Source: Sphingomonas sp. 67-36 (GTDB lineage Bacteria; Pseudomonadota; Alphaproteobacteria; Sphingomonadales; Sphingomonadaceae). Taken from it: 64,000 bases of DNA. The stretch covers positions 111,027 to 175,026 of the forward strand of contig MKSU01000016.1 in NCBI GenBank assembly GCA_001897375.1, in the 5' to 3' direction. Made by a program: the position numbers and the translations under genes. Numbering within the stretch: the first letter of the stretch is position 1; each line of letters opens with the position of its first letter. This document shows positions 14,777 through 51,424 of this stretch, piece by piece. The notes beneath the pieces were generated by a model. That model was not told the origin of the DNA. It saw only the letters and a list, made by a program, of their open reading frames with translations, and did no database searches.

Positions 14777-14910
14777 GCGAGTCGCCGTCGAAGGACCGGG
14801 CAACAGCCAATGAAGATCGTTGAAAGAGGCCTGAAATACAAGACTTGTTTATCTGCGATTTAACCCCGACATAACGGTCGTGGCTTGAGCCACATTCGTC
14901 TTCAACCAGC

Positions 14911-14925
14911 GAAAGGAGGTGATCC
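14911..14925 (+). promoter_or_regulatory. Exceptionally long Shine-Dalgarno sequence
   Basis: GAAAGGAGGTGATCC is complementary over all 15 bases to the 3' tail of 16S rRNA (GGATCACCTCCTTTC). The AGGAGG core lies 7 bases before ATG 14927, which is an optimal distance. Ordinary genes in the window show 4-6 matching bases. Confidence 0.8.
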
Positions 14926-14926
14926 G

Positions 14927-14983
14927 ATGTCTCATGGTTCAGCAATGGGGTCGGTTCAGTTCGTTCGGGGGACGCGCTTCTAA
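14927..14983 (+). CDS. Mini-ORF of 18 codons behind the extended Shine-Dalgarno
   Basis: The frame reads MSHGSAMGSVQFVRGTRF and stops at TAA. It follows a ribosome-binding site that pairs with the whole anti-Shine-Dalgarno tail, so it should be translated very strongly, or else hold ribosomes. The peptide is basic at its end (R14, R17) and has no membrane segment. A GGTTCAG heptamer occurs twice inside. It may be a leader peptide, a small functional protein or a ribosome-sequestering RNA. I recognise no family, and the function is unknown. Confidence 0.5.
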   Translation: MSHGSAMGSVQFVRGTRF

Positions 14984-14990
14984 GGCCGCC

Positions 14991-15034
14991 GGATCGCGCC
15001 GGGGGGTATCCTCCCCCAATCAACGGCACGATCC
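14991..15034 (+). other. Imperfect long hairpin directly after the mini-ORF
   Basis: Three stacked stems can form: GGATCG/CGATCC (14991-14996 with 15029-15034), GCCG/CGGC and GGGGG/CCCCC. They carry a 6-base loop (TATCCT) and one 6-base bulge (AATCAA). There is no U-run, so it is more likely a structural or mRNA-stability element than an intrinsic terminator. Confidence 0.5.
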
Positions 15035-15052
15035 ACAGGCAAGGAGGCTCGC

Positions 15053-15148
15053 ATGGTCTCCCGGGCTGGAGCTCTCCGGCCGCTGACCATGTTTAGGGGT
15101 TGTCGGGTGCTTCCTCGGGGGCATCCGGCAACCTCTTCTCATATCTGA
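15053..15148 (+). CDS. Second short ORF, 31 codons (doubtful)
   Basis: An ATG preceded by CAAGGAGGCTCGC opens a frame reading MVSRAGALRPLTMFRGCRVL... to TGA 15146. The peptide is Arg-rich, with one Cys and no known motif. Its last third overlaps the 16-bp hairpin at 15095-15136, so translation and folding would compete, as in attenuators. The good ribosome-binding site is the only positive evidence; it may be a chance frame inside an RNA. Confidence 0.3.
   Translation: MVSRAGALRPLTMFRGCRVLPRGHPATSSHI
15095..15145 (+). terminator. 16-bp hairpin, possible terminator or attenuator
   Basis: The arms at 15095-15110 and 15121-15136 pair throughout with a 10-base loop. Three of the pairs are G-U on the plus strand; on the minus strand they would be A-C mismatches, so the structure belongs to a plus-strand RNA. 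It is followed by only a weak pyrimidine tract, TTCTCATATCT. Confidence 0.5.
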
Positions 15149-18777: not shown

Positions 18778-21700
18778 TTGAATACTCCGATCTTCTACGA
18801 TCCCAGCGGCCGGCGCGGAACGCGCGCGCGCCGATCGGTCGCCGTGCTGATCGCGCTGATCGTGCTGGTGGCGATCGCCTTCGCCTCCACCCTGGTCGCG
18901 GTGCCGTCGGGGCCGGACCTGCCGCTGCCTTTCGCGCATCGCCAGGCGGAGCGATTCAACCCGCATGCCACGCCAACCACCAGGTCCGCGTCGCGCTGGC
19001 TGCCGCATCTCGCGCGCACGCCGAAGGCGGCCAAGGGCACCGCCGGCAAGCCGGTGACGATCGGCTTCTACGTCTCTGGCAACGACGGCAGCATCGCCTC
19101 GCTCCAGCGGCATATCAATTCGCTCGACTGGGTGGTGCCGGCGGTGCTGACCACCGACGCTTCGGGCAACGTCATCCAGTCGCGCGCGCCGCGTCTCGCG
19201 CAGGTGATGGCCGCCGCCGCGCGCCCGCCGAAGCTGCTGCCGATGGTGCAGAACATCGTCAACGCGCAGTGGGACGGCAAGGGCGCCGCCACGATGCTGC
19301 GCGACCGCGCCCATCGCAAGGCGGCGATCCAGCGGCTCGTCGCCTTCGTCGCGGACCAGCACGCCGCCGGGCTGGTGATGGACTATGAGAACCTCCCGCC
19401 GGAGGTGCTGCCGGCCTATGTCTCGTTCCTCGCGCAGCTCAACAAGGCGCTGCCCGAAAGCGCGACGCTCGCCGTGACGGTGCCGGCCGGCGAGCCGGAA
19501 TGGCGGCTCGCGAGCTTCGCCCGCGTCGTCGATAACGTCATCCTGATGGCCTATGACGAGCATTGGCAGAGCGGCAAGGCCGGGCCGATCGCCTCGCAGC
19601 CATGGTTCGTGCAGGTGGTCGAGGATGCGCTGCGGCAGGTCGGGCACGACAAGCTGATCGTCGCGCTCGGCAGCTATGGCTACGACTGGCACGACGATTC
19701 CGCCGATGCGATGTCGGTCGGCGAGGCGTGGCTCGCCGCGCGCAACGCCGATACGCCGGTCACCTTCGATCCCGCCAGCGGCAACGCCGGCTACGCCTAC
19801 AACCAGGACGGCACGCAGCATCAGATCTGGATGCTGGACGCGGCGACGAGCTGGAACCAGTTCGTCGCGCTGCGCCGGCTCGGCATCGTCAACATCGCGA
19901 TGTGGCGGATCGGAACGGAAGACCCCGGCTTCTGGAACGCGCTCGCCGCCTTCCGCACGAAGCTGCCGAACAAGGTGCCGGTGCTCGACAAGCTCAAGGC
20001 CGATCTCGACGTGGATGTGGAGGGATCGGGCGAGATATTGCGCATCACCGCCTCCCCCACCGACGGCCAGCGCCGCGTCGCCTACGACAAGGACGCGATG
20101 ATCCGGCGCGAGGAATATGTGTCGCTGCCGACGCCCTATGTCGTCCAGCGCGCCGGCGCGGTGCCGAAGAAGATCGCGCTGACCTTCGACGACGGCCCCG
20201 ACGCGACCTGGACGCCGAAGATCCTCGACATCCTCGAGCGCGAGCATGTGCCCGGCACCTTCTTCGTCATCGGCGAGAACGCCCTGCAGCATCCGCAATT
20301 GCTGCGCCGCATCGTCGCGGACGGTTCGGAGATCGGCAACCACACCTACACCCACCCCAATCTCGCGCTCTCGGGCGAGCGGACGGTGGATCTTGAGCTG
20401 AACACCACGCAGCGGCTGGTGCAGGCCTATACCGGCCGCTCGATGACATTGTTCCGCGCGCCCTATTTCGGGGACGCCGAGCCGACCACCGCCGACGAGA
20501 TCGGGCCGGCGCTGATCGCGCAGCAGCACGGCTATACCGTGGTCGGTCTGCACGTCGACCCGAACGACTGGCAGCGGCCGGGGACGCAGACGATCATCCG
20601 CGAGGTGCTGAGCCAGGTGGATGCCGTCAGCCCCGATCGCTCGGCTAACGTGGTGCTGCTCCACGACGGCGGCGGCAATCGCGAGCAGACCGTCGAGGCG
20701 CTGCCGCAGGTCATCGCCGGGCTGCGCGCGCGCGGCTACAGCTTCGTCACCGCCTCGCAGCTCGTCGGCCTGCCGCAATCGGTGGCGATGCCGGAGGTGA
20801 AGGGGCGCGACCTGCTGGCGGTGCGGACCGACGTCGGCATCTTCATCGCGCTGGCGCTGCTGTCGATCGCGCTGTCGTGGCTGTTCTATGTCGCGATCGT
20901 GCTGGGCATCGCGCGCGCGGTGCTGATGGCCGGGCTGGCCTGGCTCCAGACGGGCCGGCGCCGCGCCGTGCCGCCAGATTTCCACCCGAGCGTGTCGGTC
21001 ATCATCCCCGCCTATAACGAGGAGCGGGTGATCGTCGCGTCCGTTCGCCGCGTGCTCGCCAGCGACTATCCGGGGATCGAGGTGATCGTCGCCGACGACG
21101 GCTCGAAGGACCGCACCAGCGCCCTGGTGGCGGAGGCGTTCGCCGACGATCCGCGCGTCACGCTGATGACGCTCACCAACGGCGGCAAGGCGGCGGCGCT
21201 CAACCGCGCGCTGGCGCAGGCGCACAGCGAGGTGGTGATCGCGCTCGATGCCGATACGCAGTTCGAGCCGGAGACGATCGCGCGACTGACGCGCTGGTTC
21301 GCCGATCCCGCGATCGGCGCGGTGGCGGGCGACGCGCGGGTCGGCAACCGCGTGAACCTCGTCACCCGCTGGCAGGCGATCGAATATATCACCGCGCAGA
21401 ATCTCGAACGCCGCGCGCTCGCCGGGTTCGATGCGATGACGGTGGTGCCAGGCGCGGTCGGCGCGTGGCGGCGCACCGCGCTGGAATCGGTCGGCGGCTA
21501 TCCCGAGAACACGCTGGCGGAGGATCAGGACCTCACCATCGCGATCCAGCGCGCGGGCTGGCGCGTGTCCTATGATCCGCGCGCGGTGGCGTGGACGGAG
21601 GCGCCGGAGACGTTCCGCGCGCTCGCCAAGCAGCGCTATCGCTGGGCGTTCGGCACGCTGCAATGCCTGTGGAAGCATCGCGGCGTCATCGCCAGCGGCA

Positions 21701-22098
21701 AGCCCACGGGGCTGGCGCATATCGGCTTGCCGCAGGCGTGGCTGTTCCAGATCGCCTTCGCCGCGATCTCGCCGCTGATCGATCTCGCGCTGATCCTGTC
21801 GATCGGCGGCACGATCATGCGCGTGCAGCAGCACGGCTGGGCGCAGACCAGCGGCGATGTCGGCAAGATGGGCATCTACTGGCTGTGCTTCACCGCGATC
21901 GACGTGCTGTGCGGCTGGATCGCCTATCGGCTGGACGGGCGGAAGGTGCGCTACCCGGCGTTCCTGCTCGTCGCGCAGCGGCTGGTCTATCGCCAGATCA
22001 TGTATTGGGTGGTGCTGCGCGCGATCAGCTCCGCGATCGGCGGCTGGGTCGTGGGCTGGGGCAAGCTGGAGCGTTCCGGCCGGGTGCAGGCGGCTTAG
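18778..22098 (+). CDS. Trifunctional GH18-like / polysaccharide deacetylase / GT2 synthase
   Basis: A 1106-residue inner-membrane fusion. After one helix (residues 20-40) comes a GH18-like domain (about 80-400) with the active-site segment GLVMDYENLP (D202, E204). A NodB deacetylase (about 455-655) follows with TFDDGPD (D471, D472) and the metal histidines in NHTYTHPN (H522, H526). A helix (about 685-715) leads to a GT2 domain with DDGS (773-776), DAD (824-826), EDQD (around 916) and QRYRW (952-956), then C-terminal helices. Synthesis, N-deacetylation and cleavage of a beta-linked amino-sugar polymer on one chain is the natural reading. The start is TTG. Confidence 0.88.
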   Translation: MNTPIFYDPSGRRGTRARRSVAVLIALIVLVAIAFASTLVAVPSGPDLPLPFAHRQAERFNPHATPTTRSASRWLPHLARTPKAAKGTAGKPVTIGFYVSGNDGSIASLQRHINSLDWVVPAVLTTDASGNVIQSRAPRLAQVMAAAARPPKLLPMVQNIVNAQWDGKGAATMLRDRAHRKAAIQRLVAFVADQHAAGLVMDYENLPPEVLPAYVSFLAQLNKALPESATLAVTVPAGEPEWRLASFARVVDNVILMAYDEHWQSGKAGPIASQPWFVQVVEDALRQVGHDKLIVALGSYGYDWHDDSADAMSVGEAWLAARNADTPVTFDPASGNAGYAYNQDGTQHQIWMLDAATSWNQFVALRRLGIVNIAMWRIGTEDPGFWNALAAFRTKLPNKVPVLDKLKADLDVDVEGSGEILRITASPTDGQRRVAYDKDAMIRREEYVSLPTPYVVQRAGAVPKKIALTFDDGPDATWTPKILDILEREHVPGTFFVIGENALQHPQLLRRIVADGSEIGNHTYTHPNLALSGERTVDLELNTTQRLVQAYTGRSMTLFRAPYFGDAEPTTADEIGPALIAQQHGYTVVGLHVDPNDWQRPGTQTIIREVLSQVDAVSPDRSANVVLLHDGGGNREQTVEALPQVIAGLRARGYSFVTASQLVGLPQSVAMPEVKGRDLLAVRTDVGIFIALALLSIALSWLFYVAIVLGIARAVLMAGLAWLQTGRRRAVPPDFHPSVSVIIPAYNEERVIVASVRRVLASDYPGIEVIVADDGSKDRTSALVAEAFADDPRVTLMTLTNGGKAAALNRALAQAHSEVVIALDADTQFEPETIARLTRWFADPAIGAVAGDARVGNRVNLVTRWQAIEYITAQNLERRALAGFDAMTVVPGAVGAWRRTALESVGGYPENTLAEDQDLTIAIQRAGWRVSYDPRAVAWTEAPETFRALAKQRYRWAFGTLQCLWKHRGVIASGKPTGLAHIGLPQAWLFQIAFAAISPLIDLALILSIGGTIMRVQQHGWAQTSGDVGKMGIYWLCFTAIDVLCGWIAYRLDGRKVRYPAFLLVAQRLVYRQIMYWVVLRAISSAIGGWVVGWGKLERSGRVQAA

Positions 22099-50982: not shown

Positions 50983-51044
50983 AATTCCCCTCCCGTTTGT
51001 CCCGTCGCTGGCGAGCATGCCCTGCCGCCCGTCGAAGGTAAATG

Positions 51045-51424
51045 CGCCAGAGGGCCTGTAAGCCGGGTTCTGTCCATCCCGGCGGACCGGGACTGGGCGA
51101 CCATTCCTCTAGGCCCGCCGTCGCCGACGGGCTCAAGCAACCAACCCGGGCGACCGGCGGGAACACGCCGATTTGCCGCCCCTATTCGGTTTTGCTCCCG
51201 GTGGGGTTTGCCGTGCCGCCGCTGTTGCCAGCCGCGCGGTGCGCTCTTGCCGCACCCTTTCACCCTTGCCGCGCCCGTCGCCGGGCGGATGGCGGTCTGC
51301 TCTCTGTGGCACTTTCCCTGGGGTCGCCCCCGGCGGGCGTTACCCGCCACCGTCGTTCCGTGGAGCCCGGACTTTCCTCGCCCCCCGCTGAAAGCGGAGG
51401 CCGCGGCCGCCCGGCCCTCTGGCG
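51045..51424 (-). ncRNA. rnpB: RNase P RNA (M1 type A)
   Basis: The catalytic RNA of RNase P, which matures tRNA 5' ends. On the minus strand the ends pair as P1 (CGCCAGAGGGCC with GGCCCTCTGGCG). CR-I is GAGGAAAGTCCGGGCTCC (51363-51380). The CR-II/III region includes GGTAACGCCCG and GTGCCACAGAGAGCAGACC. ACAGAACCCGGCTTA sits near the 3' end. The size of about 380 bases fits alphaproteobacterial type A. The 5' end lies only about 10 bases after the amidase stop, so its promoter lies inside that gene or it is processed from a longer transcript. Confidence 0.96.

Follow-up and report, generated by a model that had tools for sequence, protein, structure and literature searches.

A structured RNA with an 18-codon frame behind a 16S-tail-complementary site in Sphingomonas, related to CC2171

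In the window (the whole stretch of 64,000 nucleotides of Sphingomonas DNA analysed here), a site of 15 bases complementary to the tail of 16S rRNA stands before a mini-ORF of 18 codons, and the two look like parts of an independent RNA unit that is, on alignment, a divergent, sub-threshold relative of the CC2171 family, or a distant branch of it. The start and stop codons of this frame look selected and the peptide does not, its sequence appearing to be held by RNA pairing. The preferred reading, which is given about an even chance of being right, is that of a standalone structured mini-mRNA or riboregulator whose translation itself would remodel the RNA, selection keeping the frame translated and the RNA folded and leaving the peptide free.

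The site, its mini-ORF and their kinship with CC2171

Direct reading of the site GAAAGGAGGTGATCC shows it to be the exact complement of the 16S tail GGATCACCTCCTTTC, with its GGAGG (14915-14919) separated by a spacer of 7 nt from the ATG at 14927, and the frame that follows ends in TAA (14981-14983) and specifies MSHGSAMGSVQFVRGTRF, so that the mismatch-free match, the start codon and the length of 18 codons described in an earlier sequence-only reading were confirmed (Table 1). The tail was taken from a 62-base 16S 3' end that ends in GGATCACCTCCTTTCTAAGGA and matches NZ_CP032828.1 (a Sphingomonas paeninsulae plasmid record) and other alphaproteobacteria at 100%; plasmid-borne rRNA served for this check because the 16S model RF00177 gave matches in none of the six genomes searched, the organism's own among them. 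Across the own genome (4.0 Mb), there is one perfect occurrence of the 14-mer GAAAGGAGGTGATC and two with one mismatch, and the latter were set aside, the starts behind them opening 5 and 33 codons. A second gene start downstream (AAGGAGG at 15041-15047 before an ATG at 15053) is also unlikely, as its Shine-Dalgarno half lies inside a coevolving helix strand; one relative (locus L028) has AAAGCGG where the window has AAGGAGG.

Table 1. Features of the locus, in positions of the window
Feature	Positions	Strand	Basis or remark
Upstream neighbour, lipoprotein-like in the reader's judgement, 178 residues	14240..14776	+	Conserved, same strand
Putative promoter, conserved GACTTG (14842-14847) and ACAT (14869-14872)	14842..14875	+	Type A upstream alignments
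Putative transcript of some 260 nt (type A, related to CC2171)	14880..15140	+	Guessed from conservation and 3' hairpin
Shine-Dalgarno site complementary to the 16S tail	14911..14925	+	Direct reading, comparison with plasmid rRNA
Mini-ORF, 18 codons and TAA	14927..14983	+	Length of 18 in 146/164 copies; stop-type changes on tree
P1 5' strand CATGGTTCAGC, codons 3-6	14933..14943	+	Pairing possible with 15082-15091; CC2171-type copies have CATTGTC:GACAATG as counterpart
P3 5' strand, 3' end of ORF and stop codon	14963..14985	+	Coevolution with region 15042-15066
P4 hairpin GGGGG/CCCCC, AATCAA bulge before CGG	14998..15027	+	Predicted
P3 3' strand	15042..15066	+	Coevolution; a second ribosome-binding site is unlikely here
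CATGGTC, which could pair locally with GACCATG (15085-15091) instead	15052..15058	+	Predicted fold
P1 3' strand GCTGACCATG	15082..15091	+	Invariant in 89-sequence alignment
Terminator-like hairpin, weak T tail	15095..15136	+	Predicted stem of 19 pairs, partly conserved

RF01867 is the Rfam model of CC2171, a Caulobacter sRNA that reportedly goes back to the work of Landt et al. in 2008, and its gathering threshold is 75 bits. At a relaxed threshold, 14903-14952 aligns with this model at 27.1 bits (E 6.4e-4), which is below the cut-off, while intermediate copies from two sister genera reach 46.7 and 41.3 bits, and the 5' core CAAC..GAAAGGAGGTGATCC..TGTCTCAT is almost identical in the window RNA and RF01867. 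In view of this kinship, the previous remark that no named family was known for it is not supported. When 289 genomes of the class were searched with RF01867, matches at E <= 1 were found in 112 and matches over the cut-off in 9; since 6 of 14 control genomes matched as well (one above the cut-off), many of the weak matches are due to chance. One weak match on contig 9 of the own genome was rejected as a second copy, lying inside an apparent long open frame, and a third weak match is found at about 19308-19409 of the window. The only Rfam match in the window at curated thresholds is an RNase P RNA of class A (51043-51422, minus strand, 291.7 bits). A 1106-residue ORF at 18778-22098 (plus strand) has, in the reader's judgement, apparent glycosidase, deacetylase and glycosyltransferase parts.

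Besides sharing the 5' core, the window RNA may have in common with RF01867 a P1 helix that joins the start region to a segment before the 3' hairpin, and it differs in using CATGGTTCAGC as its P1 strand as opposed to CATTGTC, in adding a P3/P4 domain, and in having 18 codons where the CC2171 kind mostly has 21-26. The consulted parts of the Rfam entry class RF01867 as an sRNA gene and mention no ORF; from portions of two further sources, Rfam 15 added one covarying pair for RF01867, and the predicted Mesorhizobium sRNA MH_s33 is tied to RF01867 in its paper's table. Copies were divided into type A, the kind in the window, with CATGGT at codons 3-4 and the start helix CATGGTTCAGC:GCTGACCATG; type B, the CC2171 kind, comprising other copies with CAT at codon 3 and mostly CATTGTC:GACAATG; and type C, which holds the remainder. 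The core pattern occurs twice in 20 of 91 genomes of the genus, where the second copies read GTGGTC (17/20) or GTGATC (3/20); those examined are type B, and GTGGTC keeps a G-U pair with the 16S tail. A CC2171-like type B copy (L046, G010 C1:805104-805255) is found alongside a type A copy.

Evolution of the reading frame and its helices

Comparison was based on 262 distinct cores from 306 loci (164 type A, 87 type B and 11 type C), with duplicates and copies near a locus end omitted. The patterns and models through which most of the loci were obtained favour the Shine-Dalgarno site and the start, and for the majority of the 164 type A copies AAAGGAGGTGRTC was itself part of the search pattern, which makes the presence of GAAAGGAGGTGATCC in 163 of them partly a matter of construction; ORF length and stop codon were absent from the search patterns. 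Read in frame, 146 of the 164 type A copies reach their first stop after 18 codons (range 15-25), 84 of the 87 type B copies after 21-26 codons (the others after 14, 20 and 33) and the 11 type C cores after 20-30 codons, while in frames +1 and +2 the first stops of the 262 cores are scattered broadly. In addition, all 30 loci that a plain DNA similarity search yielded, among them that of the window, have the site and the 18-codon frame, and the length is the same in all of 89 copies (87 from the genus and two from sister genera), which use TAA 47 times, TGA 31 times and TAG 11 times. Conservation of the frame across close relatives, on which the sequence-only reading had been made to depend, was borne out.

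By parsimony counts on one tree, built with FastTree from upstream DNA (157 tips; 158 of the 164 type A rows used), the type of stop codon changed at least 42 times and the ORF length 12 times, where mutation alone would keep a stop in just 18-35% of hits to the stop codon. Within codons 7-18 of copies with 18 codons, 251 of 285 codon changes (88%) alter the amino acid, as opposed to a neutral expectation of 70-73% and to 57% when the upstream neighbour gene is counted in the same way (148 copies, 123 columns). Codons 1-5 and 9 are invariant in the genus, and third codon positions have the lowest variability in the ORF across the 89 copies. As the amino acids are not conserved, classical dN/dS would score this ORF as non-coding, and yet the retention of the stop codon speaks for actual translation.

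These counts speak against the proposal that the strong site serves a high output of a functional 18-residue peptide, which is considered unlikely. Although frame and length are conserved and the N-terminus MSH is nearly constant, this N-terminus tracks the P1 strand, so that copies with another P1 have another N-terminus (MSNEII in locus L052, MSDEII in L058), and although many type B peptides share TW(I/V)xAS by eye, the codons for TWIVAS allow a second reading, as RNA that pairs with its own Shine-Dalgarno site (CUGGAUC...GCCUCC). Two earlier Caulobacter ncRNAs are reported as translated in the consulted part of Schrader et al. 2014, which would agree with a peptide, but the share of altering changes does not. 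Since RNA pairing constrains the codons, a peptide under weak constraint would be compatible with the data; an abundant small peptide, the earlier explanation for the site, is not favoured, and across the copies compared the site and frame recur while the amino-acid sequence does not. Type A peptides are by eye short, polar and arginine-rich. A type I toxin mRNA was rejected, as no hydrophobic membrane peptide was seen by eye.

What appears to be conserved in place of the peptide is pairing. RNAalifold gave a poor consensus fold on the 89-sequence alignment, and arm-swap tests were used for this reason. In type A (162 of 164 copies, thinned to 96 non-redundant ones), the P3 arms pair at a mean of -42.8 kcal/mol, against -28.9 when swapped (sd 0.57, best of 200 permutations -30.3), and the P1 extension of types B and C (65 of 98 copies, 33 having no searched P1 strand, thinned to 49) pairs at -23.6 against -17.7 (sd 0.44, best -18.9). 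These tests indicate that P3 and the P1 extension of types B and C coevolve and that parts of the ORF are strands of long-range helices. The P1 partners differ on both sides across copies (CATTGTC:GACAATG, CATTGCC:GGCAATG, ATGAGATT:AATCTCAT and CGAGATC:GATCTCG), and the window strands are complementary and placed as in RF01867, with no variation inside type A. In an unguided helix search, the best helix was P1 as CATGGTT:GACCATG in 47 of 164 type A copies and as TCATTGTC:GACAATGG in 14 of 87 type B copies, plus variants, the remaining copies giving other helices, some of them by chance. The P4 stem varies on both sides among relatives (by eye, uncounted). In its 3' bulge lies a CAACG that is well conserved, each base at 90% or more across 89 copies, and could possibly be a protein or RNA contact; the P4 hairpin itself did not appear when the two copies from sister genera, L055 and L147, were folded. 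The earlier suggestion of an independent structured RNA thus gains support from fold and conservation.

In the predicted folds of the window RNA, the form with the local 3' hairpin (-135.7 kcal/mol) and the form with P1 forced (-135.1 kcal/mol) are equal within error, and with the ribosome site held open the predicted fold keeps P3 (-119.0 kcal/mol). From 60 copies drawn per type, the predicted probability that GGAGG is unpaired was 0.31 against an RNA mean of 0.31 in the 58 usable type A copies and 0.33 against 0.32 in the 44 usable type B copies; by these models the site is neither specially accessible nor hidden. Pairing between the site and the inside of the ORF has modest strength (mean z of -1.02 in type A, -1.49 in type B and -1.83 in type C), with z < -2 against shuffles in 8% of type A, 38% of type B and 45% of type C copies. 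In several type B and C copies, codons 13-19 mimic the 16S tail (for example CUGGAUCGUCGCCUCC) and are able to pair with their own Shine-Dalgarno site, which together with P1 would make a pseudoknot.

Decoy and leader readings, neighbours and distribution

The site could alternatively act as a decoy that sequesters either 16S tails, as a ribosome sponge, or sRNAs bearing an anti-Shine-Dalgarno stretch. A 16S sponge would need numbers rivalling those of ribosomes, and a pure decoy needs neither frame nor stop, yet both are kept, the kept stop arguing against an RNA that purely holds ribosomes. Complementarity to the 16S tail, together with the G-U pair kept by the GTGGTC variants of type B, agrees with a decoy, as does the case of CrfA, which sponges SisA-D, RNAs that have in common a 10-mer with an anti-Shine-Dalgarno signature, as described in the consulted part of PMC12559287. 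The 'sensor or sponge' put forward in the sequence-only reading may apply, and the decoy in particular is judged quite improbable.

Still more doubtful is that the RNA acts in cis, whether as leader or attenuator for the gene downstream or as an element in the 3' UTR of the gene upstream. The upstream neighbour, which has no Pfam or NCBIfam match, is kept in 152 of 164 type A loci, but it lies at a distance from the RNA that ranges between about 60 and more than 900 bases, and the downstream gene is not conserved, the M20 peptidase of the window being found in 9 of 164 type A loci and the best downstream cluster in 35 of 164. Type B has no fixed neighbour (the largest shared-neighbour cluster covers 8 of 87 loci), from which it follows that this kind stands alone. 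A short ORF with alternative helices does resemble an attenuator, although the downstream conservation expected of one was not found, and a sigma-70 consensus scan returned no promoter at the locus. The conserved GACTTG and ACAT blocks, of unusual spacing, nevertheless suggest a promoter of the RNA's own. At the other end, the 15095-15136 hairpin was not called by the terminator scan, whose sole terminator-like site (14880-14893) is at chance level.

By plain DNA similarity, 35 of 61 relatives match, every one of them in the genus, and these matches gave the 30 loci mentioned above, 5 being without a locus. The core pattern was found in 87 of 150 relatives, corresponding to 87 of 91 genomes within the genus and to none of the 59 that belong to the order's other families; the four genus genomes without it are 81, 82, 84 and 86% complete. 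This pattern of 20 bases recurs through the bacterial family, where 203 of 249 genomes and 86 of 96 genera have it, with no match for a backward-read control pattern among those listed. That the site is antisense 16S or a chance match, as its identity with the complement of the 16S tail might suggest, is regarded as refuted by this recurrence and by the locus itself, where no rRNA is found in the window at the gathering threshold and a mini-ORF follows instead of 16S.

A stricter 24-mer is patchy, with 34 of 385 genomes of the class and 28 of 299 of the phylum matching, all 28 among 86 alphaproteobacteria and none among 213 other genomes of the phylum. Carriers include at least Sphingomonas, Novosphingobium, Sphingobium, Erythrobacter, Bosea, Methylobacterium, Microvirga, Brevundimonas and Roseococcus among the matches listed (80 of at least 120 stretches), and 92 distinct named copies are spread over five orders. 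The phage collection searched gave no match and the plasmid collection one Azospirillum record. On this plasmid of Azospirillum thermophilum (L314, 2519-2695), an annotated hypothetical protein of 58 aa (WP_168220487.1) begins with the same 5' core; this protein has the look of a signal peptide in the reader's judgement and no Pfam or NCBIfam match, and the core leader may drive a secreted product there.

Known systems and a possible mechanism

Dual-function or translated small RNAs such as Spot 42, rnTrpL and SgrS resemble the window RNA in combining a short ORF with a long structure. On evolutionary evidence, the window ORF may be translated too; the difference is that here frame and stop are kept and amino acids are not. 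CrfA and SisA-D of Caulobacter also have anti-Shine-Dalgarno-like stretches that pair between RNAs, whereas a mini-ORF is absent from the consulted parts of PMC12559287. In Staphylococcus aureus, the consulted part of PMC13009471 describes extended Shine-Dalgarno initiation with a similarly long helix to 16S rRNA near the start codon, used by many mRNAs, as opposed to one site per RNA here. In Caulobacter, a member of the same class, a Shine-Dalgarno site is given for 24.6% of CDSs in the portion of the source consulted. Among the titles listed, the CC-licensed PMC literature searched gave no study of the window RNA, its ORF, the 16S-tail match or the Sphingomonadaceae branch; translation of CC2171 may already be recorded in Schrader et al. 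2014 (Dataset S1).

In the mini-mRNA reading, in which transcription, ribosome binding and switching are all inferred, a 30S subunit would dock on the 16S-tail-complementary site and the ribosome would translate 18 codons that double as helix strands (P1 in codons 3-6, P3 in codons 13-18 and the stop). Because these codons are also helix strands, loading and translation would open P1 and run into P3, leading the RNA to unfold or switch, and termination would release it. The output may be a stability that depends on the ribosome, or the unmasking of a segment able to pair with other RNAs, governed by how many free 30S subunits are available; a site matching the full tail could put this RNA among the first to be loaded once free 30S subunits exist. 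More tentatively, and with a good deal less confidence than in the mini-mRNA itself, this could be an RNA kept by many alphaproteobacteria with translation, as opposed to the product, as its function, whose full-tail site reads free 30S subunits with intact tails and whose fold is switched by the ribosome.

The analysis concerns an RNA family that had been catalogued without a function being found, and whose frame is apparently selected for its start and stop and not for a given peptide. If this is right, coding tests that rely on amino-acid conservation overlook a class of translated regulatory RNAs, and the bacteria that carry this RNA would own a possible sensor of translation capacity.
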